The notes beneath the pieces were generated by a model. That model was not told where the DNA came from, ran no database searches, and worked only from the letters and a program-made list of their open reading frames with translations. A stretch of 34,413 bases of DNA from a virus. Both the position numbers and the translations under genes were made by a program. The stretch is taken from the IMG/VR virus record IMGVR_UViG_3300046517_001586, positions 1-34,413 of that record. One strand, given 5' to 3'. Shown here in pieces: positions 1-17,900 of this stretch; positions within the stretch are counted from its first letter, which is position 1; every line of letters begins with the position of its first letter.

Positions 1-2
1 GC

Positions 3-146
3 CTCGGCCACAAAACGCTGGCAATGGCCGAGCTGTATTCCAAGGAGTTCAACCGCACCAAGCTGGAGGATTCCGCCGCCCGCAAACTGCGTCCGCAGGA
101 GCCTGCGGAAGTCGTCAAGTTCCCCGGCAAGAGGAAGCCGAAATGA
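3..146 (+). CDS. int: Tyrosine-recombinase integrase, C-terminal fragment
   Basis: Only the last 47 codons are in the window; the gene continues upstream of base 1. The reading begins LGHKTLAMAELYSKE, the conserved end of phage tyrosine recombinases: the LGH box followed by the nucleophilic tyrosine, here encoded at bases 36-38. The remaining 35 residues form a basic tail ending KFPGKRKPK. Family knowledge says the tyrosine forms the covalent 3'-phosphotyrosyl link to the att core. The gene points toward a tRNA-Phe fragment that starts 93 bp after its stop, the usual int-att arrangement. The substrate site is inferred from that adjacency. Confidence 0.88.
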   Translation, partial: LGHKTLAMAELYSKEFNRTKLEDSAARKLRPQEPAEVVKFPGKRKPK

Positions 147-149
147 ACG

Positions 150-338
150 GTTTTCCGGAAAGTTTTCCACGGAAAACGGTTTTTGGAAAACTGGGTCAGC
201 AGGAGTTCCCTAAAGTGCCTCTTAAGTCTTTGAAATCGCTGGTGCCCAGGGGCGGAGTCGAACCACCGACACACGGATTTTCAGCCCCTTGCTCAACAGC
301 CGATATCAAGGGCTTAGCGACCCGGTTTCTGGAAAACT
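150..338. repeat. Repeated TGGAAAACT motif flanking the att core (candidate arm-type sites)
   Basis: The 9-mer TGGAAAACT occurs exactly at 184-192 and 330-338 on the plus strand and as its reverse complement at 161-169. The shorter core GGAAAAC occurs at 171-177 (plus) and 150-156 (minus). Four copies lie left of the tRNA fragment and one lies right. Lambda-type integrases bind short repeated arm-type sites on both sides of the core, so arm sites are the simplest reading. This is inferred from position and repetition only. Confidence 0.55.
240..284 (-). tRNA. tRNA-Phe(GAA) 3' fragment, likely att core
   Basis: Read on the minus strand this is the 3' end of tRNA-Phe. It has the anticodon loop CTGAAAA (anticodon GAA), a T-arm GGTGG-TTCGACT-CCGCC, and the acceptor strand CCTGGGC followed by ACCA. 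The sequence upstream on that strand does not supply GCCCAGG for the acceptor stem or a paired D-arm, so the tRNA is not complete. A 3' fragment running from the anticodon loop to CCA is the classic piece carried by phages that integrate into tRNA genes and rebuild the host tRNA. It should be read as an attachment site, not a functional tRNA. Confidence 0.82.
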
Positions 339-340
339 TT

Positions 341-373
341 GGTGGATTGGCAAACTTTCGCCGCCAATCCACC
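341..373. repeat. Perfect 11-bp inverted repeat in the att region
   Basis: GGTGGATTGGC (341-351) and GCCAATCCACC (363-373) are exact inverted copies around an 11-base loop. No T-tract follows on either strand, so an intrinsic terminator is unlikely. Its place, 57 bp from the tRNA fragment, suggests a binding site for an excisionase or regulator, but nothing here proves that. Confidence 0.5.
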
Positions 374-546
374 CCCGGTTCGTTCTCATCCGTGTGTCGC
401 CCGAAAACCAGGGAATTTGCCTATAAGAGACGACAGACTATCGGAAGCTTTTTCCGTAGGTCAAATGCAGATGCGGAGTGTCCTGGGAAGCGCGCGGACC
501 AGGGGCAGAAGGCGTTCTCGATCGACGCCGCACCGAGCATCGTCTC

Positions 547-747
547 ATGAGCGAGTTCGTCTCCTACGGCGATGACGGGCCGGTCTTCGGACGGGCCTGC
601 CCTAGCTGCGGGCGCTATCTGACGTTCCCCGCCACGATGCAGTGGCGGGAGGATTTCACCGGCGTCTGCACCTTTCCCAAGATCGACTGCCGCCGCTGCG
701 GCCCGGTCGAACCTGGCCATCTCGGATGGGGAGGAGATTTTCGATGA
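547..747 (+). CDS. Small zinc-ribbon protein, first gene of the plus-strand operon
   Basis: A 66-residue protein beginning MSEFVSYGDDG. Two cysteine pairs, CPSC near residue 17 and CRRC near residue 51, are spaced as in a treble-clef or zinc-ribbon knuckle. An upstream in-frame start exists at 478, but the ATG at 547 gives the compact zinc protein. No clear Shine-Dalgarno is visible at 547, unlike most neighbours. Its stop overlaps the next start as ATGA. Function is unknown; a nucleic-acid or protein adaptor role would be typical of such phage microproteins. Confidence 0.6.
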   Translation: MSEFVSYGDDGPVFGRACPSCGRYLTFPATMQWREDFTGVCTFPKIDCRRCGPVEPGHLGWGGDFR

Positions 748-938
748 GCGGACGCTACCAGGCGCAGCCGGATCCGCGGGTCAATCACGACGGCTGGTGG
801 GTAATCGACGACTATCACTTCCTCTTTGAGGGCATCCCCACCGCTGAAGCCGCCAACAAGATTGTCTCCGAACTGAGGCTCGCCTTCATGCATGGCTACG
901 GCAAAGCCCTGGACGAGATGAGGGAGAAGAAATCATGA
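744..938 (+). CDS. Small conserved phage protein, paralogue of 2690-2893
   Basis: A 64-residue protein. The start at 744 is chosen because GGAGGAG sits 7 bases upstream and the ATGA overlaps the previous stop. It carries the pattern HD-x-W-x-V-x-D, then IPT, A-A, and HGY-x2-A. The gene at 2690-2893 repeats this at the same spacing, so the two are duplicates. No catalytic motif is visible and I do not recognise the family. Confidence 0.72.
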   Translation: MSGRYQAQPDPRVNHDGWWVIDDYHFLFEGIPTAEAANKIVSELRLAFMHGYGKALDEMREKKS

Positions 939-1177
939 CGACGGTAACCCGCGTCGTTACCGGCGATGACGAGATGCTGGAATTCCTCGCGGACACGATG
1001 CGCCTGTGGCGTCAAGTCTATGTTGTCGACCGCCAAGAGAGCGAGCATCGCGCTCGTCTGAAGATTGCACTCAGCAAGAAGGACGGCGCGCTGGCGGCAT
1101 CGTTCGTATGCCTTGGCCCCGGTGGGGCGTACCTCGGTGACCGGGTACTGGTGCGTCGAGCGAGGCCACGACGATGA
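935..1177 (+). CDS. Hypothetical phage protein (80 aa)
   Basis: It starts by ATGA overlap with the preceding gene. The protein is mildly basic with an Arg-rich end (VRRARPRR) and no cysteine cluster or membrane segment. I do not recognise it. Tight coupling on both sides supports it being translated. Confidence 0.62.
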   Translation: MTTVTRVVTGDDEMLEFLADTMRLWRQVYVVDRQESEHRARLKIALSKKDGALAASFVCLGPGGAYLGDRVLVRRARPRR

Positions 1178-1509
1178 AACAGCCGCCGAGCGAAGATGCG
1201 ATGGAGCTGGCAATCAAATTGTTCCCTACCGCTGGCGATGATGACCTTGATGTTTACGCTACCCAAATCGATGCCTTTGCCGCCCGCAAAGTGGCCGAGG
1301 CCGACGACCCTCAGTGGGACGGCACCGACGCCGCGCACCCGGCGTGGTGGCGCGGCAACGACCGGGGTTGCCGGTTTGTCACCCAGCGTCTGACCGACGC
1401 GCTCGACGGCAAGGATGATGGAGCAGGCTGGATCGGCTACCCGCCGCTGGAAGCCCTGCGCCGGCGGTTGCTCGCCATCGCCGATCATCGCGAGGTATTG
1501 CCGCCATGA
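1174..1509 (+). CDS. Hypothetical phage protein (111 aa)
   Basis: Coupled by ATGA to genes on both sides. The sequence is acidic in its first half, with a DDDLD run and DDPQWDGTD, and a conserved-looking HPAWWRGNDRG patch in the middle, followed by a Leu/Arg helix. It has no membrane segment or known motif. It is a soluble accessory protein of unknown function. Confidence 0.66.
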   Translation: MKQPPSEDAMELAIKLFPTAGDDDLDVYATQIDAFAARKVAEADDPQWDGTDAAHPAWWRGNDRGCRFVTQRLTDALDGKDDGAGWIGYPPLEALRRRLLAIADHREVLPP

Positions 1510-1838
1510 CCGATCATGTCGCCGCAGCGATCCGCGCAGGATGCAATAACGAAATTCCCGAGCCATTACCACGCTGCCGATATCCCGAGTGTGCCGACGC
1601 TTGCGATGTCGCGGCCACGTCTCTTGCCACTGTTCGCGCCCTCCTGCCGTACCCGACAGGCCCGCTGCTCTTGGATTTGGAGCGCATCCAGGCGGTGATG
1701 CTTGAACTTTATCCGGAAGCCTTATCCATGAGCGATGACAGAGGGGAACTTTATTGTCAGATCAGCCGCAAACATCCATCGGCTGTACGAGGATTTTGCA
1801 GTTGCGGTCCATGTCGAGCGTGGAGAAAGGAGAAATAA
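1506..1838 (+). CDS. Hypothetical cysteine-containing phage protein (110 aa)
   Basis: Starts with an ATGA overlap. Cysteines occur as CRYPEC-x3-C in the N-terminal third and as CSCGPC close to the C-terminus, which could bind a metal. Function is unrecognised. Five bases separate it from the next start, at 1843. Confidence 0.58.
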   Translation: MTDHVAAAIRAGCNNEIPEPLPRCRYPECADACDVAATSLATVRALLPYPTGPLLLDLERIQAVMLELYPEALSMSDDRGELYCQISRKHPSAVRGFCSCGPCRAWRKEK

Positions 1839-1842
1839 AGAA

Positions 1843-2187
1843 ATGGCTTTCGTTCTAGAAATCCAGTTGGACAACATGAAGCATCATTTGATGATGTCTT
1901 CGCTTGAAGAAGCCAAGGAGTGGCTTGAACGACTCACGCCCTATGTTGGCATTCCGCGCTTTTCTCGTAATGACGACGACCCAAAGAACATCCGAGTAAC
2001 CTCGCTGGAGGGTGAGGTCGTTGTCGCGCTGGAACACATCATCAGTGTTCGCGCGCTCGACAACAAGATTTACCATGACACCAACGCGGAAGAGCGGATC
2101 GCCGATCGCCAGGAGTTCGCCGAGATTTTCCGCAAGGTCGACTCGATGATCTGGGAGAAGCTCTTGGAGCGACTCGATCGCCGATGA
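1843..2187 (+). CDS. Hypothetical phage protein (114 aa)
   Basis: The frame is open from 1735, but ATG at 1843 is preferred: AAGGAG lies 10 bases before it and it follows the previous stop by four bases. Starting MAFVLEIQL, the protein is acidic and likely alpha/beta, with an amphipathic C-terminal helix (FRKVDSMIWEKLLERLDRR). Base composition is more AT-rich than its neighbours. No known motif was found. Confidence 0.65.
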   Translation: MAFVLEIQLDNMKHHLMMSSLEEAKEWLERLTPYVGIPRFSRNDDDPKNIRVTSLEGEVVVALEHIISVRALDNKIYHDTNAEERIADRQEFAEIFRKVDSMIWEKLLERLDRR

Positions 2188-2351
2188 ACACCTGTGAAAC
2201 CTGTAAGCACTTCATGCCCCTCTCGCCGGGGCACGCCGCCATCTGTTTTGAGCGGTGGAAAGATCTGCCGTGGAACGCCGCCGTTCCGCTGACCACCAAA
2301 GACGAGTCATGCGAGAAGCACGAACTCCGTACCGATCGAGCGCCGACATGA
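2184..2351 (+). CDS. Cysteine-rich microprotein (55 aa)
   Basis: Short gene that starts by ATGA overlap at 2184 and itself ends in an ATGA overlap with the next. The product begins MNTCETCKHF and has two further cysteines (near residues 21 and 45) and several histidines, consistent with a single zinc site. The order CxxCxxF near the N-terminus with later single cysteines is common in small phage zinc proteins. The function is unknown. Confidence 0.62.
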   Translation: MNTCETCKHFMPLSPGHAAICFERWKDLPWNAAVPLTTKDESCEKHELRTDRAPT

Positions 2352-2503
2352 TCAAAGCCGGACTCTTCTGCCTCTTTTGCGGGTTTGTCGCCGGCTACAT
2401 TTTGCACGGGTGGGAATTCAACGAAAAGCTGCGCGAGGTCGAGCAAAAATACGACGCTCTCGAAAGACGGCTTCTGGGGATCAGGAGGACACCCGATGAG
2501 TGA
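2348..2503 (+). CDS. Small single-span membrane protein (51 aa)
   Basis: Translation starts at the ATGA overlap (2348), though the frame is open further upstream. The first 20 residues (MIKAGLFCLFCGFVAGYIL) form one hydrophobic segment. The rest is a charged helix with heptad character (EKLREVEQKYDALERRLLG). This N-in single-span plus coiled-coil layout recalls i-spanins, but the gene sits in the early operon, far from the endolysin, and is very short. A membrane accessory role is all that can be claimed. Confidence 0.6.
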   Translation: MIKAGLFCLFCGFVAGYILHGWEFNEKLREVEQKYDALERRLLGIRRTPDE

Positions 2504-2690
2504 CCTGGCCCGCGCGCTGCCCTTCCGCGAAATCTGGTTGGACCCGTTCTGCGCGGACTGCTGGACCCCCGGCACCGAGATCACTTGGTGCCAGCACGAC
2601 ATCTACGAACCCTGCCCGATGTGCGGTCGGAAGGCGATCCGCTACGCGCTCGACCGCCGGCAATTGCCGCGAACGAAAAAGGAGCAGTGA
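2496..2690 (+). CDS. Zinc-ribbon microprotein (64 aa)
   Basis: ATG at 2496 lies 7 bases after a perfect AGGAGG, deciding the start against an open frame from 2385. Cysteines form CADC, a C-Q-H cluster and CPMC, typical of a zinc ribbon. It overlaps the end of the previous gene by 8 bases and shares one base with the next start. Function unknown. Confidence 0.68.
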   Translation: MSDLARALPFREIWLDPFCADCWTPGTEITWCQHDIYEPCPMCGRKAIRYALDRRQLPRTKKEQ

Positions 2691-2893
2691 TGGCTCTGGA
2701 TTATTACCCCTTCCTTGCCGCCGAGGGTCGACACGACACCTGGGTCGTGACCGATGGTTTCTGCAACCTGATCGACTGCATCCCGACACTGACAGCCGCC
2801 GAAACAGTCGCAGCCGCAATGAACGGAGCTTATCACCGCGGCTACGAGGCGGCGCGAGCGGACTTCCGCGCGGCGCTGGGGGTTATCCCGTGA
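2690..2893 (+). CDS. Small conserved phage protein, paralogue of 744-938
   Basis: A 67-residue protein starting at the A of the preceding TGA. It shares with the 744-938 product the ordered residues HD-x-W-x-V-x-D, IPT, an Ala-rich helix and GY-x2-A, indicating an old duplication inside this operon. Two extra cysteines appear in this copy. No function is recognised. Confidence 0.7.
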   Translation: MALDYYPFLAAEGRHDTWVVTDGFCNLIDCIPTLTAAETVAAAMNGAYHRGYEAARADFRAALGVIP

Positions 2894-2952
2894 CCAAGGC
2901 CCAGCCCCACGGTGCAGAGATTACCGCGACAGTCGAAGTAGAGCCAACATGA
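2890..2952 (+). CDS. Putative 20-codon linking ORF
   Basis: GTG at 2890 overlaps the previous stop (GTGA), and its TGA (2950-2952) overlaps the next ATG (2949). Such exact tiling at both ends is what translational coupling produces. The peptide is tiny and featureless, so it may serve only to carry ribosomes to the next gene. Confidence 0.35.
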   Translation: MTKAQPHGAEITATVEVEPT

Positions 2953-3233
2953 CTAACCACCCCAATCGCAACCGAACGGCGCGCGCGGAGCGGATCGTCG
3001 ATGTTGTACTTGCCGAATTTGGCGCGGTGATCCGCAAAATATCGATGCGCGACGCGATGGTGGCAGCATGTGCCGCCGCTTTGATCGATAGGGAGGGCCG
3101 CACGCCCTGCTTGTCGGCGCTCGCCAGCGGCGAAGCGTGCCAGCCAGACGAGTCTTTGAAGCGTTGCGCGATCTGCGGCTTTGTCGTCGACACGCAATTC
3201 GCCGCCGAAAAGCCTGTGAGGATGCGGCCATGA
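2949..3233 (+). CDS. Hypothetical phage protein with Cys motif (94 aa)
   Basis: Starts by ATGA overlap. The N-terminal half is a helical region (RIVDVVLAEFGAVIRKIS), followed by an Ala-rich helix and a cysteine motif CAICGF near the C-terminus, with earlier single cysteines that could complete a metal site. I do not recognise the family. Confidence 0.62.
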   Translation: MTNHPNRNRTARAERIVDVVLAEFGAVIRKISMRDAMVAACAAALIDREGRTPCLSALASGEACQPDESLKRCAICGFVVDTQFAAEKPVRMRP

Positions 3234-3286
3234 CCAGCATCGTAGAAGTCTATCGGCGCTGGCCTACTAAGGAGCGCACGCCGTGA
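3230..3286 (+). CDS. Putative 18-codon linking ORF
   Basis: ATG at 3230 overlaps the previous stop (ATGA), and the TGA at 3284-3286 overlaps the GTG start of the SLOG gene. An internal AAGGAG lies 9 bases before that GTG and can serve as its ribosome site. The ORF may exist only as a coupling leader. Confidence 0.35.
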   Translation: MTSIVEVYRRWPTKERTP

Positions 3287-3714
3287 TCCTCGGCTTCACC
3301 GGCACCCGCCAAGGTCTGACCGGCGCACAGCTCGCCGGTTTGCCGTTAGCTCTCCCCATCCCGCCGGATCATCTCCTGCACGGCGGCGCACCGGGTGCCG
3401 ACACCCAGTTCGATAGATGGTTCCGCGCGAATTGGGGAGCGATGACCTTGCACATCGAGGTTTACCCGTCCTATGGGCGACATTGGAACGGCGACGATTC
3501 GTCATGTTTACTGACGGTCCACCCGCCGATGCAGCCGCTGGCGCGCAACGTCATCATCGCGAAACGCTGCGACCGGCTTCTAGCCTGCCCCGCCGAGATG
3601 AACGAGGTGGTCCGCAGCGGCACCTGGGCGACCGTCCGCTATGCCCGAAATTGGGAGAAGCCGATCACCCTGTTGATGCCGGACGGCACCATCAAACAGG
3701 AACCAGCGCCGTGA
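3283..3714 (+). CDS. SLOG/DprA-like Rossmann nucleotide-binding protein
   Basis: A 143-residue protein that starts at GTG 3283, coupled to the preceding micro-ORF. The two hallmark motifs of the SLOG superfamily (DprA/YpsA/LOG/TIR-associated SLOG) are visible: GFTGTRQGLT at the N-terminus and HGGAPGAD at residues 33-40, which shape the nucleotide-phosphate pocket. Later the segment LLACPAEMNEVVRSGTWATVRYA matches the usual helix that follows the fifth strand. Members bind nucleotides, nucleotide-derived signals or single-stranded DNA. This is a single-domain form. A DHH phosphodiesterase lies two genes downstream, which makes nucleotide-signal metabolism a reasonable guess. Confidence 0.8.
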   Translation: MILGFTGTRQGLTGAQLAGLPLALPIPPDHLLHGGAPGADTQFDRWFRANWGAMTLHIEVYPSYGRHWNGDDSSCLLTVHPPMQPLARNVIIAKRCDRLLACPAEMNEVVRSGTWATVRYARNWEKPITLLMPDGTIKQEPAP

Positions 3715-4217: not shown

Positions 4218-4393
4218 AACCAATCCGCGTCTTCTACTCGACGTTGACCCGGCGGTTTTACGCCAGCCGGCAGTATCGCGAGGAAGGCGGCGGGCTGGTG
4301 ACGACCGGCGAGAAATTCGACGTTACCGACGATATCGCCCGCCTGGTTGTGAAATACGGGATCACCTTCGCGGAGCAAAAAGATGACCAATAA
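4214..4393 (+). CDS. Hypothetical phage protein (59 aa)
   Basis: GTG at 4214 is chosen over ATG 4208. GGAGG lies six bases before the GTG, and the GTGA overlaps the previous stop, whereas the ATG sits immediately beside the Shine-Dalgarno. The product is a basic-then-acidic small soluble protein ending FAEQKDDQ. It overlaps the next gene by 11 bases. Confidence 0.6.
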   Translation: MKPIRVFYSTLTRRFYASRQYREEGGGLVTTGEKFDVTDDIARLVVKYGITFAEQKDDQ

Positions 4394-5261
4394 AACCCTC
4401 TGCATCTGGCACGGGAACTGTCAGGACGGTTTCGGCGCCGCATGGGCCGTGCATCACGCGCTGGGCAAAGACAACGTCGAATTTCATGCTGGCGTCTACC
4501 AAGACGCGCCACCCGACGTGACCGGGCGTCATGTGCTGTTGGTCGATTTCTCATACAAGCGCCCGATCCTCTTGGACATGGCGACGCGAGCAAAGTCGAT
4601 CCTCATCCTCGATCACCACAAAAGCGCCGCAGAAGATCTCGCGGGCTTCCGAGGGCCAACTTACCAGCAATGGCAGGACAAAGGCCGAGGGCCTGATCCA
4701 GCCGATCCGCCGATCGCGGTGGTCTTCGACATGGAGCGATCCGGTGCCGGGCTAACCTGGGACCATCTGCTTCCCGGCAGACCGCGGCCGCGACTGATCA
4801 ACCACATCGAGGACCGCGACCTGTGGCGGTTCAAGCTGCCAAACACGCGCGAGATCAGCGCCGCCGTCTTCAGCTACCCCTATGAGTTTGCGGTGTGGGA
4901 CACGCTGATGGCGATGGACCTCGATCTGCTGGCGCTGGCCGGGACCGCGATCGACCGCATGCACCTGCGCGAAATCGCCAACCTGCTGCCGGTAGTCCAG
5001 CGCAAGATGGTGATTGGCGACCTGGCCATGCCCGTCGCCAACCTGCCGCTGACGATGACCAGCGACGCCGGGCACCAGATGGCGACCGAGGCTGATGGCA
5101 TCGCCGCCTGCTACTGGGACACGCCGGAGGGGCGGGTGTTTTCGCTGCGCTCCACGGATACCGGACCCGACTGCCAGGCCATTGCCGTCAGATACGGCGG
5201 TGGCGGCCATGTCCACGCCGCCGGGTTTCGGGTTGAGCTGGGCTGGGAAGGAGACGAATAA
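4383..5261 (+). CDS. DHH/DHHA1-family phosphodiesterase (NrnB-like, COG2404 type)
   Basis: A 292-residue protein with the ordered motifs of DHH phosphoesterases: HGNCQDGFGAAW (residues 10-21), VDFSY with Asp55, LDHHKSA with the DHH triad at 77-79, and HIEDRDLW (Asp144/Asp146). At the C-terminus a DHHA1 substrate-binding signature follows: GGGGH (272-276) and AAGF (279-282). All metal-binding positions appear present, so it should be an active Mn-dependent enzyme. Family members cut linear di- and short oligoribonucleotides (nanoRNA) or cyclic nucleotides. In a phage it could recycle short RNA or remove cyclic-nucleotide alarm signals; the substrate cannot be read from sequence. Confidence 0.86.
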   Translation: MTNKTLCIWHGNCQDGFGAAWAVHHALGKDNVEFHAGVYQDAPPDVTGRHVLLVDFSYKRPILLDMATRAKSILILDHHKSAAEDLAGFRGPTYQQWQDKGRGPDPADPPIAVVFDMERSGAGLTWDHLLPGRPRPRLINHIEDRDLWRFKLPNTREISAAVFSYPYEFAVWDTLMAMDLDLLALAGTAIDRMHLREIANLLPVVQRKMVIGDLAMPVANLPLTMTSDAGHQMATEADGIAACYWDTPEGRVFSLRSTDTGPDCQAIAVRYGGGGHVHAAGFRVELGWEGDE

Positions 5262-7576: not shown

Positions 7577-8040
7577 CTGACTCGGAGCATAACGACGACC
7601 GCTGGCTCGTCACGCGCTATCTTCCAAGCGGTCAAGGGGCAGCCAACATCACCGGCTGGTATGTGGTTCGAATCTGCCCGTGCTGTTGTGGCGAAAGGGT
7701 GACGCTGCCTTATCCAAACCAGGGACGAGCCGAGAGAGTACGTCTGGTACTCCTGGGACAAATTACGACGCCCTCAGAACCAAAACTGAAATGGTCCAAC
7801 GACGAAATTATTTCCCCGCCAACGCTAATCGTCGGACAGATCTGGCTCGACCGACATCGCCGTTTCGGCGCCGATCGCTATGTGCGGATTAAATCCGTGG
7901 ATGAAACAACGGTGTTGGTCACTACCGTGGTGCAGCAAGACGACGTCTGGAGCCCGGCTCCAAAAACACACCCCAGCAAGATCTCGGCACACCGCTTCGA
8001 GACTGAACGTTGGTTTGTATTTATCGAGGGACCAGAGTGA
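7570..8040 (+). CDS. Hypothetical protein with CPCCCG knuckle (156 aa)
   Basis: Starts at GTG 7570 after GAGGGAGAC, overlapping the previous gene by 7 bases. An early CPCCCGERVTLP motif suggests a half zinc site. The second half looks like a small beta-barrel (LIVGQIWLDRHRRFGADRYVRIKSV, then FETERWFVF). I cannot assign a function. Confidence 0.6.
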   Translation: MLADSEHNDDRWLVTRYLPSGQGAANITGWYVVRICPCCCGERVTLPYPNQGRAERVRLVLLGQITTPSEPKLKWSNDEIISPPTLIVGQIWLDRHRRFGADRYVRIKSVDETTVLVTTVVQQDDVWSPAPKTHPSKISAHRFETERWFVFIEGPE

Positions 8041-8618
8041 CGCTTTACAATGTCATCTACGCCGACCCCCCTTGGCGTTTCAAAACCTATAGCAAGCTCG
8101 GCCTCGGCCGCAGCGCCGAAGCCTATTACGATGTCATGACGCCGGCCGAAGTTGCGGCTTATCCGGTTCAGCACCTCGCCGCGAAGGACTGTGTGCTGCT
8201 GCTTTGGGTCACCGACCCGCTGCTGGAATACGGGTTCGACGTCATCGATAGCTGGGGCTTCAAATTCAAGACCGTCGGGTTTTATTGGGTCAAGACCGGC
8301 AAGGATTATTTCGGCCGCCCGATCGGCACCGGCTATTGGACCCGTGCCAATCCCGAGCAATGCCTGCTGGCAACTCGCGGCAAGCCAAAGCGTCTCAATG
8401 GCGATGTCCGCAAGCTGATCGAGGCGCCGCGCCGCGAGCACAGCCGCAAGCCGGACGTAGTCTATGAGCGTATCGAGCGGCTCGCCGCCGGTCCCTACGT
8501 CGAGCTGTTCAGCCGCCAGCGCCGGCCAGGCTGGGACGCCATTGGGCTCGAATCTGATAGCGGCCCCGCTCGGCGCCGCTGGCACACCGACATGCGGGAA
8601 ATGCGGGGAGAGGCATGA
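8037..8618 (+). CDS. MT-A70 family DNA N6-adenine methyltransferase
   Basis: GTG 8037 is the start: it overlaps the previous stop and has GAGGGACC upstream. The upstream extension of the open frame adds only a non-homologous leader. The product opens MTLYNVIYADPPWRF, with the catalytic DPPW motif at residues 10-13. It then shows the MT-A70 landmarks LLLWVTD, a strand ending in FYWVK, RANPEQCLLATRGKPKR, and HSRKPDVVYERIERL followed by YVELFSR. At 193 residues it is a minimal catalytic domain with no target-recognition domain. It probably methylates phage DNA at N6-adenine, which can block host restriction or affect regulation. The target site is not predictable. Confidence 0.88.
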   Translation: MTLYNVIYADPPWRFKTYSKLGLGRSAEAYYDVMTPAEVAAYPVQHLAAKDCVLLLWVTDPLLEYGFDVIDSWGFKFKTVGFYWVKTGKDYFGRPIGTGYWTRANPEQCLLATRGKPKRLNGDVRKLIEAPRREHSRKPDVVYERIERLAAGPYVELFSRQRRPGWDAIGLESDSGPARRRWHTDMREMRGEA

Positions 8619-11919: not shown

Positions 11920-12177
11920 ATGGGCAATTACGGCATCCGCTGGGAGAACGGCTACTGGGTACTTCACATCCTGTGGATGGAGCCGCTCGGTCAGCGCCGC
12001 TGGTGTTCCAACTCCCGAATGCTTAAGCGCCGATCACGATCGCTGGATCGGCTGCTGGCGAGCATGACCGGCGTCGAGGCGGTGATGCTGTTTCCGACCT
12101 GCTCGCACATGCCCTCGCAACAATGCGCGATGCCGGTGCCGCCACAGTCGAGGCAGATGACCGGCGGCGGATGCTGA
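11920..12177 (+). CDS. Hypothetical protein (85 aa), overlaps an antisense frame
   Basis: ATG 11920 lies three bases after the previous stop; no clear ribosome site. The first 55 residues (RWENGYWVLHILWMEPLG, then an Arg/Ser helix) look protein-like. The last 30 are Pro/Gln/Met-rich. That last part is antisense to a frame (11991-12197, minus) that encodes a good zinc motif, and wobble positions of the two frames coincide. One of the two is probably a shadow. Confidence 0.42.
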   Translation: MGNYGIRWENGYWVLHILWMEPLGQRRWCSNSRMLKRRSRSLDRLLASMTGVEAVMLFPTCSHMPSQQCAMPVPPQSRQMTGGGC

Positions 12178-12840: not shown

Positions 12841-13437
12841 TCAAGCCTCGTTGGTCGATACCGTGCCGGACGCCGACACGAAATAGGGTTTGCAGCTCGG
12901 CGGCGATGCCTGAAGCACCCGTCGTACCGCGATGCAGCGCGCCTTCGCCACCCGCGTGATCGTCACGCTGTCGCTCTGGTTGCCGCCCAGCGTGTGATAG
13001 TGAGCATCGTCCTCTGCGACGTAGAACCCGACATGCCCGCCGCCCTGCCGGACGTAGACCAGCACGTCGCCCAAGCTCGCGGCGCGGCCTTCGGCAAAGC
13101 GCAGGGTCGGGTTGCTCTCGTTTCCGATATTGCCCGCCACCGACCCGCCAAACTGCGCCCAATTGCGCGCCCAAAGCGGGTTGGTAACCAGCTTCTCGCC
13201 CGCCCGATGCACAACGATCGCGGCGAAGAGGCCGCACCACGGCACCGAATCGTCGCTGAAGCCCTGGACCGTGCGCGGGTGCGCTTCGTTGATCTCGTCG
13301 GCCCACGCATCGATCACCGCGTTGGATGCGCTACCGGGTAGCTCGTTCGTTCCCAGCAGCGCGAGCGCGTGCAGGATCGTCGGCGGGTGAACGCCCACCG
13401 TATTAAGAAAGGCATATTTGGTTGGTATGCCCGCCAT
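12841..13437 (-). CDS. Endolysin, TIGR02594 / CHAP-like peptidase
   Basis: ATG 13437 is chosen because AGGAGG lies six bases before it; the upstream part of the frame is a shadow. The 198-residue product has the family signature LLGTNELPGSASN, then VPWCGLF with the catalytic Cys68, RNWAQFG, GDVLVYVR, GGHVGFYV with His135, and LGGNQSDSV (Asn153/Gln154). This is the TIGR02594 architecture, an NlpC/P60-CHAP-type cysteine peptidase that cuts the peptide part of peptidoglycan. It lacks a signal peptide, so it needs a holin for export. Neighbours on both sides are small membrane proteins, forming a lysis cassette. Confidence 0.86.
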   Translation of the reverse strand: MAGIPTKYAFLNTVGVHPPTILHALALLGTNELPGSASNAVIDAWADEINEAHPRTVQGFSDDSVPWCGLFAAIVVHRAGEKLVTNPLWARNWAQFGGSVAGNIGNESNPTLRFAEGRAASLGDVLVYVRQGGGHVGFYVAEDDAHYHTLGGNQSDSVTITRVAKARCIAVRRVLQASPPSCKPYFVSASGTVSTNEA

Positions 13438-13447
13438 CGTGATCCTC

Positions 13448-14089
13448 CTACTGATCGAGCTTCGCCGCGATCTCGCGCGCCGCCTGGACGGCGACATCCT
13501 CGACACTGGCTTCCGGCGCCGTGACCCAGGCCATGTAGATGATGCCGACAAAAGCCTCGGGACCGGGCGGTATCGGCACCGCGCAGCCTCGCTTGAACCC
13601 GCGATCCGCAAGCCGCGCGACAACCGGAGAATGTGTCGCGGACGATAGGTCGGCGCAGGCCGGATGGCCCGCGAGGATGTCCACTACAGCCTGCACATCG
13701 GATCGCGCGGTGATCACCGGCAACCGTCTCGGTTCTGGGATCACCGGACGATCGCCATCATGCCGACGAGCACCGATGAATCTCTGCACGTTCGCGCCGA
13801 GGTCGACCTCCCAAATCTGCACCAGATCGGCCCCGGTCAACTCGACCAGTTTTTCCAGCGCAGCCGGAACCTCGCTGGTTTTCAACGACACGGCTGAAGG
13901 CGTCAGCCACGATTCCAGCAACTGCTCACGCTTCTCGTAGACGATCCAGCCTGCGCCGCCGACGACGAACAGGATGACAAGCGCCGCCACCTTCCACGGG
14001 CGGTCGACATAAGCGAAAAGCTGGCCGAGCAGACCGGAAACACCAGCCTGCTCATGCGCTGGCGGGCGCGATGGCGGCTGCTCGGACAT
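13448..14089 (-). CDS. Single-span membrane protein with GAF-like domain
   Basis: A 213-residue protein with a polar N-terminus, one membrane segment at about residues 33-51 (VAALVILFVVGGAGWIVYEKR) and a C-terminal alpha/beta domain. That domain (PAALEKLVELTGADLVQIWEVD..., GCAVPIPPG, FVGIIYMAW, then a helix) resembles a degenerate GAF fold. It ends ten bases before the endolysin start. Position suggests a lysis-timing or membrane role, perhaps an antiholin-like sensor. The GAF assignment is a pattern judgement, not a confirmed hit. Confidence 0.62.
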   Translation of the reverse strand: MSEQPPSRPPAHEQAGVSGLLGQLFAYVDRPWKVAALVILFVVGGAGWIVYEKREQLLESWLTPSAVSLKTSEVPAALEKLVELTGADLVQIWEVDLGANVQRFIGARRHDGDRPVIPEPRRLPVITARSDVQAVVDILAGHPACADLSSATHSPVVARLADRGFKRGCAVPIPPGPEAFVGIIYMAWVTAPEASVEDVAVQAAREIAAKLDQ

Positions 14090-14960: not shown

Positions 14961-17900
14961 GCCAAATTCCTTTCTGGCGGGTTAAGAACGAGGTCTTCCA
15001 GTTCTTTAACGCGAGCCGCAAGTTGCTGGAACGCGCGAATGTAATAAGCGTCGAGGCGATCGGTGACGATGCGTAGCATACCTTCGCCGAGAAGCCCCAC
15101 GGCTTCGACCGAGTTGGGGATCAATTCTTGAATTTCTTGCGCGACGATACCGCACAACACCGGGCCGACATTGGGCAGAAATTTCCGCCCTCGCTCGGTC
15201 CATTCAAAGGCCCGCACAGGTATCGCGCCCAGGACCGCAAGGGCATCGATTTCGCTGTCGCGAATATTGAGCTTTAGTCGCGCGTCGGACCACGTGGTAA
15301 CGGGTTGCAGGACATAGCCAGAGGCGCCCTGATCTGGGCTGACCTCGAAATAGCCGCCGCTCATGGCGTAGGACATCGCGCCCCAATCGCCCGCCCAGCA
15401 TCTAATCTGCGCTCCCCCGTTGCCGCCGCCGTAGTACCAGCCGCCACAGGTGTAGCTGCCATCGCACCGCGCATCACCTGTGCTGTGAATGTAGGCACCA
15501 TTGACTTGATTGCCTGCGTTGATGTTTCCCGCGTTCCAGATGTCGCCTCGCGAGTACACACCGGCAGCATGCAGCGTCTGATCGAAATACATGTAACCGC
15601 TGTTGTTATACATGCGGCAACCGCCGACATAAAAATCGCCACACTGCATGTAACCGTCAGCGTGGATATTGTTAGGTGTCCACCATGTGCCGCCGTTGTT
15701 CCAGAACTGCAAGCCGTTGCAATAAACACTCCCAGCGGTGTTCATATTGCCGCGCGAGTAGAAATCGCTGCAATTGATGTTATTATCGCAGTAAAGCTGC
15801 CCGACTATTTCGAGGGTTCCCCACCCGGCGCCGCCACAGTAGTAGCCCATCTGACACCAGTTATTCTGGGTCTGGGGTTTGATGGTGAGAAATCTGCTAT
15901 AGTCGGAACAGGTGACGGTAAGGCTGTCGTTGGCATCGGTGCCGTGAACGCGGGTCTGGCTCCCATTCAAATACGATGTCCCACTGACGTTCAAATTGCC
16001 GCTGCAACTGAGCTGACCGCCAGCACTTATATCAGTGGCAGCCGTTATCCATAAACCGGCTTGCACCGCGCTATCAGTGTGGATCGGGCTTCCCGTCCAC
16101 CACCAGCCACCGTTATTGCCCCACCAAATGCCGTTGACACCTGTACTGCCGTTGGCTTGGACGTTGCCGCCACATGTCAGACTTTGCTGGATCGTTGCAT
16201 TGCCATTAGTGTCGATCTGAAACCTCACCTGGCCAACACTCTCGTCGGCGAGATACCAGACACCAGTATTTATGCAGCCCGCACTCCACAGGCGCGTCCC
16301 GGCAACTTCATAAAACCACCGGGCATGACAATTGTTGGGAACTGTGATCCTGGCGTTATCACTCGTACCGGGCTGAACGTGGGTGTAACCATTCAAGTAG
16401 ATGTTGGGCGCGCGAACGATGAGGTTCAGCGAACCGTCACTCAAATAGTACTGATTGTCATTGGCGAGGATCAAGCCGTAGCGCGCGGTGCCATTTGTAT
16501 CCAGAAACCAGATATAGACATTGTTGGGCATGTAAACATTGCTAGGGTAGAGGTTCCCAGTGTGCAAAGTCCCGCCGACGGTAGCCCCGTTTCCAGTGTT
16601 TCCATTGATCCAGATTTGAGTGTTGCTTTCAAGATGGCCATTACCATCATCGAACATCTGAAGGTAGTTACCGCCGCTATAGGTGATGAAAGTGTTGCCG
16701 GTCGAGCCGTTGTTTAGCCTGATACTCCCATTGTATACGACAAGTCCCTGCTCCATCGACACCACGCCGCTGGCGAGGTTTATGTAGAAGGGGCGCAGCG
16801 AGTTGAAACTTCCCCAGGCGTCGTTAACTGCGGTCAGCAACAGGTACATATTACCGGCGTCGGTGTACCAAAATGACCCGTACCCGGTGTTGTTAATGTT
16901 GGGGCACATGCGGTAGCTCGCCCCGCCGCCTCTCTTTAGGACAGACCCATCAACAGTCAGCACGCTATTGTGGTAGGCGTTGCCGTCCACGGTGAACGAG
17001 TGATAATTGACCGATCTTGCGTTGTTCTGGATGTAAAGACCGCCATTACTCGGTCCCATCGCTATGACGACATTGGTCGCGTCACCTGAGATGGACGGGC
17101 CGCCGGTTGTGGCACCAGCAAAGAAAACATAATTGCCCGTAAGGTATAAATTAGGGGTTGTCACATAACCGGAGACGTTGAGGACGCCGGCAATATAAAG
17201 CTGCGTTGCCGTCTCCAACTGGATGCCGAGCGTCGTGCCGCTATTCCAGCCCATATAGCCAAGACGCGCACCGCCGCCCAACGTCGTCGAGGGTAGCCGC
17301 CACTCGATGTAGCCGGTGTTGACCGCACTGCCCGCGATGAGGTTGACCTCGCCGCCGCCGGAGGATTTTACACCAAGACCGGAAGTGACAGGACCGCCGG
17401 GATTGCCCATGACGACCAGCCCGCCGTTGACCGTCGCCTTGGTAACCGTCAGCGCGCCGGTCACAAACAGATTGCCTGCCGAGTTAAGCTGCATCGCTAC
17501 AGCGCCGGGATTGTTGTACCAGAACCAACTGCCGTTCCCGGTGCCTAGCTGCGTCGTCATATTGATGGTGTCGGCAGAGACGTAAGGCCCACCGGCATTC
17601 ACACCATAAAAGTACAAAGTCGGCCCGCCCATGAAGATGCTGGCCCCGGTGCGGAGTGAACCCGGCGTGCTGATGGTGCCGCCACTGTCGACCGTGAACC
17701 GATCGCCCGATTGATCATTCCACAGGCGCGCAACACCGGCCTGCGCGTACCAGCCCCAGTTTGTCGTCCCGGTGCGATCTTGAAACGTGAGAATGGCATT
17801 GTTGCCGGTTGAGCCGATCTGCCCAGAGATCACCAGCGGGCCGGTCGCGGTGATGCTCCCGACCGAGAAAATGCCGCCGCCGCCACCGAGAATCGTGGTG

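Follow-up and report, generated by a model that had tools for sequence, protein, structure and literature searches.

The core of the phage lambda attachment site is 15 bp long and does not lie in a tRNA gene. In the Islander set of 3919 islands, tDNA 3′ fragments are present in 3760 and anticodon-centred sites in 2083, and an attP of ~250 bp with crossover in the anticodon loop is standard for tRNA-gene sites (PMC4383910). In Citromicrobium phages phiD and phiE, integrase-attP modules target tRNA-Phe-GAA or, in near relatives, tRNA Gln, and module exchange has been proposed (PMC12486242). The attP of mycobacteriophage Pixie (subcluster K3) has a tRNA(Lys) core of 47 bp with direct and inverted arm-type repeats around it in unequal numbers, and relatives of Pixie use another core and other arms (PMC3203893).

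Here, we analyse a stretch of viral DNA of 34,413 bp (the window), which is a whole IMG/VR record without terminal repeats, and conclude that positions 146–373 are very probably the attP of a temperate tailed alphaproteobacterial phage, captured in unintegrated (or concatemeric or packaged) DNA and targeting tRNA-Phe. Prior work on tRNA-gene sites makes this the default reading (PMC4383910). Like the Islander-set sites of subsite 'A', the locus has a tRNA 3′ fragment, an attP of ~250 bp, a predicted anticodon-loop crossover, an adjacent integrase gene and a tRNA that would be restored on integration, with no difference of principle (PMC4383910). Likened by description, it resembles phiD and phiE in its alphaproteobacterial host group, in having tRNA-Phe among the targets and in its modular integrase-attP unit, but belongs to another phage group, with tRNA-Arg(TCT) rather than tRNA Gln as the alternative target (PMC12486242). 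Likened by attP layout and not by integrase, it shares with Pixie a tRNA core with unequal arm repeats, in an unrelated host (PMC3203893). The integrase aligns with lambda Int over the core-binding and catalytic domains (PDB 1p7d, 5j0n), while its N-terminal ~66 residues lie outside this match and are not matched to the lambda arm-binding domain. The lambda attP, likened by layout and not by repeat sequence, likewise combines an IHF motif with arm repeats to the left and right of its core; its short core outside a tRNA gene contrasts with the 45-bp tRNA-Phe core found here.

Table 1. Features of the putative attP and its surroundings (window coordinates unless a contig is named)
Feature	Position	Strand	Basis or remark
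Remainder of integrase gene	L295:11032–12126		PF00589, 1.1e-14; phrog_1, 9.7e-36
Tyrosine integrase, C-terminal 47 codons (LGHKTLAMAELYSKEF...)	3–146	+	Last His and catalytic Tyr; cut by contig start
GGAAAAC, short putative arm-type repeat	150–156	-	Sequence pattern
TGGAAAACT, putative arm-type integrase-binding repeat	161–169	-	Sequence pattern
GGAAAAC, short putative arm-type repeat	171–177	+	Sequence pattern
CGGTTTTTGGAAAACT, extended putative arm-type repeat	177–192	+	15/16 identical to 323–338
attP core, tRNA-Phe(GAA) 3′ part, C32 of anticodon loop to CCA, 45 bp	240–284	-	Sequence comparison
Anticodon loop positions 32–38 (CTGAAAA), predicted strand-exchange region	278–284	-	Homology break and known anticodon-loop subsite (PMC4383910)
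Imperfect extension of homology into tRNA 5′ half	285–294	-	GAGCAAGGGG versus GAGCAACGGA, 8/10
TATCAAGGGCTTA, exact IHF consensus (WATCAANNNNTTR)	304–316	+	Motif match; only one in window
CGGTTTCTGGAAAACT, right-hand putative arm-type repeat	323–338	+	Sequence pattern
Perfect 11-bp inverted repeat (hairpin), right edge of attP	341–373	.	Sequence
TGGCAAACTTT, degenerate right-hand repeat	348–358	+	10/11 to 330–340
ATCCGTGTGTCG, exact 12-bp inverted copy of core positions 267–278	388–399	+	Sequence
First operon gene after attP	547–747	+	Homologue (65% identity) also first gene after attP in G002
DHH phosphoesterase gene	4383–5261		In rightward operon
Methyltransferase gene	8010–8618		In rightward operon

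Layout of the window and its left neighbour

The window begins within an integrase gene, of which it carries the last 47 codons, and ends in a head-tail adaptor gene. Between them, a rightward operon from 547 to ~12,900, made up mostly of genes without known function, is followed by leftward tail genes. The DHH phosphoesterase of the operon shares 44–47% identity with its counterparts in Caulobacter giant phages and is common in prophage-like contigs. For the first operon gene, the viral contigs searched contained no relative beyond the homologue in Table 1. An open reading frame at 143–550, which spans the attP, is probably not a gene, as integration would cut it.

The initial annotation had suggested a free circular or permuted genome. 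This suggestion holds for the biology of the phage but not for this contig: a circular or permuted contig was rejected, as terminal repeats are absent and the right end does not carry the integrase N-terminus. Because the N-terminus is missing there, the record is a linear fragment rather than a permuted whole genome, and about half of the genome is missing from it.

Searches with the C-terminal 47 residues of the integrase against phages, plasmids, Pfam and PHROGs returned nothing useful. A degenerate codon pattern covering the end of the integrase matched one contig, L295 (IMGVR_UViG_3300046517_000824, 12,128 bp), whose final 127 bases (12002–12128) are 100% identical to positions 1–127 of the window. 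A de Bruijn assembler run at k = 127 leaves exact 127-bp end overlaps between neighbouring contigs. Because the overlap fits such an assembler, L295 is most likely the left neighbour of the window, on the basis of contig overlap and not of reads. The overlap, a probable assembler junction, places a branch point inside the integrase gene, which suggests strain variation at the integrase-attP cassette.

L295 supplies 365 integrase residues, with the lambda integrase structures as best solved relatives, and the joined integrase carries the catalytic motifs HGLRH, LGHK and LY. To the left of the integrase, L295 encodes a repressor-like helix-turn-helix protein, a sliding-clamp-like protein, RusA, Sak4, SSB and a Cas4-like exonuclease, a replication module colinear with that of the related contig G002 described below. 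Given these replication genes, phage DNA lies also to the left of the attP. No excisionase was recognised among the two open reading frames preceding the integrase in L295.

The core is the 3′ part of a tRNA-Phe gene

A 45-bp tRNA-Phe 3′ fragment lies 93 bp beyond the integrase stop codon (144–146), as the initial annotation had stated. Read on the minus strand, its sequence is CTGAAAATCCGTGTGTCGGTGGTTCGACTCCGCCCCTGGGCACCA, and the homologous genomic loci that were tested are called tRNA-Phe(GAA) by ARAGORN. No full tRNA gene is present within the window, and an Rfam search of positions 1–3000 gave only sub-threshold noise. Upstream of C32, the phage matches tRNA-Phe at 8 of 10 bases and is divergent beyond.

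The initial annotation had set a comparison with alphaproteobacterial tRNA-Phe genes, and an exact match to a tRNA-Phe 3′ end, as a test. Alphaproteobacterial tRNA-Phe genes were indeed matched, although an exact 45/45 match to the core was found neither in 84,980 genomes nor in the viral contigs searched. Relaxing the core pattern at three positions yielded at least 119 matching stretches, mostly alphaproteobacterial, and among the matches listed the closest intact alphaproteobacterial tRNA-Phe genes are identical to the core at 44 of 45 positions. Specifically, the tRNA-Phe of Centralia_MAG_3 (L079) has T59 in place of C as its single difference, two other genomes of the same order have A57 in place of G as theirs, and further genomes also have tRNA-Phe genes one base off the core. 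We regard the missing exact match as reflecting an unsampled host and not as a refutation.

Truncated tRNA-Phe 3′ copies were also found in bacterial contigs, mostly alphaproteobacterial (L055, L058, L068, L071, L090, L108, L111, L115, L143 and L145). These copies have foreign DNA upstream, with breakpoints at or near C32, and look like the remains expected from other elements with the same crossover region, which would make tRNA-Phe a frequent integration target. In Centralia_MAG_3, the genome with the closest tRNA match to the core among the matches listed, an element that includes a primase/helicase-like gene and a seemingly broken integrase gene adjoins the tRNA-Phe (L157:5586–9872). A tRNA-Phe 3′ fragment with the same breakpoint lies beside an integrase-like open reading frame, apparently of another subfamily, in viral contig IMGVR_UViG_3300043640_000419 (L294:1472–1516). 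In Rhodovulum phage RS1, a 44-bp tRNA-Phe-like stretch (91% identity) lies near the left end of the published record (L029:136–179), almost 3 kb from the annotated integrase.

Putative arm-type repeats and an IHF motif flank the core

Putative arm-type repeats are present on both sides of the core. Exact copies of TGGAAAACT occur at 161–169 (minus strand), 184–192 (plus) and 330–338 (plus) and nowhere else in the window, and the 7-mer GGAAAAC occurs five times in 34,413 bp, each time flanking the core (150–337). The second and third exact copies belong to a longer repeat, CGGTTT(T/C)TGGAAAACT, with a 15/16 match between 177–192 and 323–338. In dinucleotide shuffles of a 320-bp region, a 9-mer in at least three copies arose in 70 of 5000 trials and a 15/16 repeat of a 16-mer in 0 of 200; in the rest of the window, 320-bp stretches with three copies of a 9-mer occur at three places, all of them simple codon-like repeats. 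All repeat coordinates given in the initial annotation, including those of the shorter copies, were recovered, but the arms are not 'symmetric' as it had described them, with four copies on the left and one on the right plus the degenerate copy. An intrinsic terminator was considered as the role of a hairpin at 146–181, whose RNA folds well (z −3.8), and was rejected: a scan found no terminator-like tail, and arm repeats are therefore the preferred reading of this segment.

The IHF consensus is expected 0.41 times in 34 kb and ~0.003 times per 230-bp stretch by simple arithmetic, and the predicted site, called from its motif only, falls between the core and the right arm. These elements bear on whether the fragment is a tRNA-Phe remnant that has decayed or is not used, next to an integrase acting at some other site. 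A remnant could have acquired the single mismatch to the nearest known tRNA-Phe among the matches listed, and would fit the lack of integrated copies of this phage in the searches, the 385 alphaproteobacterial genomes searched giving only distant relatives of its tail proteins. Against it, the integrase, the core, the arms and the IHF motif are each intact, with the expected spacing, and G002 has a parallel intact set; we consider a remnant highly improbable.

Two further elements lie at or beyond the right edge. The 12-bp inverted copy of part of the core was equalled in 8 of 3000 shuffled flanks. It is very unlikely that this copy and the hairpin at 341–373 together form a functional second attP element, such as a regulatory decoy or secondary core; if they did, they would be something that ordinary attP sites lack.

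A related phage carries a different integrase-attP unit at the same locus

G002 (IMGVR_UViG_3300046543_000437, 64,257 bp) has operon and tail genes in common with the window, in the same gene order and with patchy DNA identity of up to 98%. Its left part contains a replication module, repressors, an excisionase-like gene (phrog_1840) and an integrase, and its right part contains portal, head and terminase genes. A collagen-like or tail-fibre-like gene sits between the head-tail adaptor and portal genes of G002, just past the point at which the window ends (L017:12402–14075).

The G002 integrase differs from that of the window and occupies the same locus. Directly after it comes the 3′ part of a tRNA-Arg(TCT), flanked by its own 29-nt repeats (13397–13425 and 13620–13648), and the att region is followed by the homologue of the window's first operon gene. 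At this one locus, integrase, core and arms thus change as a set, and the integrase-attP unit behaves like a cassette that can be exchanged. Elsewhere in the two genomes, patches of 98% identity (window 1503–2179 and 3279–3711; L015:14157–14833 and 15929–16361) stand beside stretches without a DNA match, a pattern that may reflect recent mosaic exchange between the two phages.

The comparison also bears on the other proposal of the initial annotation, namely that two elements share one tRNA gene in tandem. On this reading, integrase and operon would come from different elements and meet at a hybrid att in tRNA-Phe. Tandem arrays at tRNA genes are documented (125 among the 3919 islands of the Islander set; PMC4383910), and tRNA-Phe is much used as a target in these bacteria. 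However, different elements should bring different arms, and here the core has the same 16-bp repeat to its left and to its right. Moreover, G002 orders integrase, att and operon alike and has its own single repeat pair, its first gene after the core is a homologue of the one found here, and L295 joined to the window corresponds to a single G002-like phage. A hybrid of two elements is therefore very unlikely.

A head-to-tail concatemer, or identical prophages in tandem, would also present an attP-like junction, in replicating or integrated DNA rather than in a free circle. Circle, concatemer and homodimer look alike by sequence alone, although free or packaged DNA would be the simpler source of metagenome reads. 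We assign a small but appreciable probability to the concatemer or homodimer.

Some integrase relatives lie tail to tail with intact tRNA genes

Among 385 alphaproteobacterial genomes, the seven best integrase relatives have 31–38% identity. Four of the seven lie 57–79 bp from an intact tRNA 3′ end (Thr, Thr, Arg(TCT) and Lys) in tail-to-tail orientation, an arrangement that fits the restored end predicted by the model below; for the other three (L299–L301), no tRNA gene was present within the stretch fetched. In two viral contigs (L292 and L293), an intact tRNA-Phe lies beside an integrase relative.

These arrangements differ from the locus in the window, which could otherwise be taken for the end of an integrated prophage (attL or attR), bordered on one side by host DNA, where an integrase beside a tRNA fragment would look alike. 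The fragment in the window lacks the tRNA 5′ half, and so is not the gene that integration restores beside the integrase (compare L292, L293 and L296–L298). In addition, the phage operon lies to its right and phage DNA (L295) to its left, and phage genes on both sides exclude an integrated end, provided that L295 is the true neighbour. We consider a prophage end extremely improbable. That phage genes lie on both sides had been proposed initially; L295 on the left, the operon and tail genes on the right and the same layout in G002 bear this out.

Proposed mechanism and implications

We infer integrase binding, IHF use, lysogeny in this host and the position of the crossover. The lambda-type tyrosine integrase encoded alongside would bind the arm repeats of the TGGAAAACT family left and right of the core, with the DNA probably bent by IHF at 304–316. 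Strand exchange would occur at the anticodon-loop part of the core (~278–284) with the corresponding position of the host tRNA-Phe gene. Integration would split the host tRNA-Phe, and the phage-borne 3′ part would restore the gene. The restored tRNA and the integrase would then lie tail to tail, and the host's own 3′ fragment would be displaced to the far end, beside the operon starting near 547.

The attP reading of the initial annotation is thus upheld by the core, the repeats, the integrase, the IHF motif and phage DNA on both sides; the attP is well preserved and of a thoroughly known kind. The analysis fixes the likely integration target, the tRNA-Phe anticodon loop, for a group of uncultured alphaproteobacterial temperate phages, and also fixes their genome layout. 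The window and G002 form a clean pair, in which integrase, core and arm repeats change together while the neighbouring operon stays. The principle is already known, and the pair helps to predict hosts and prophage ends.
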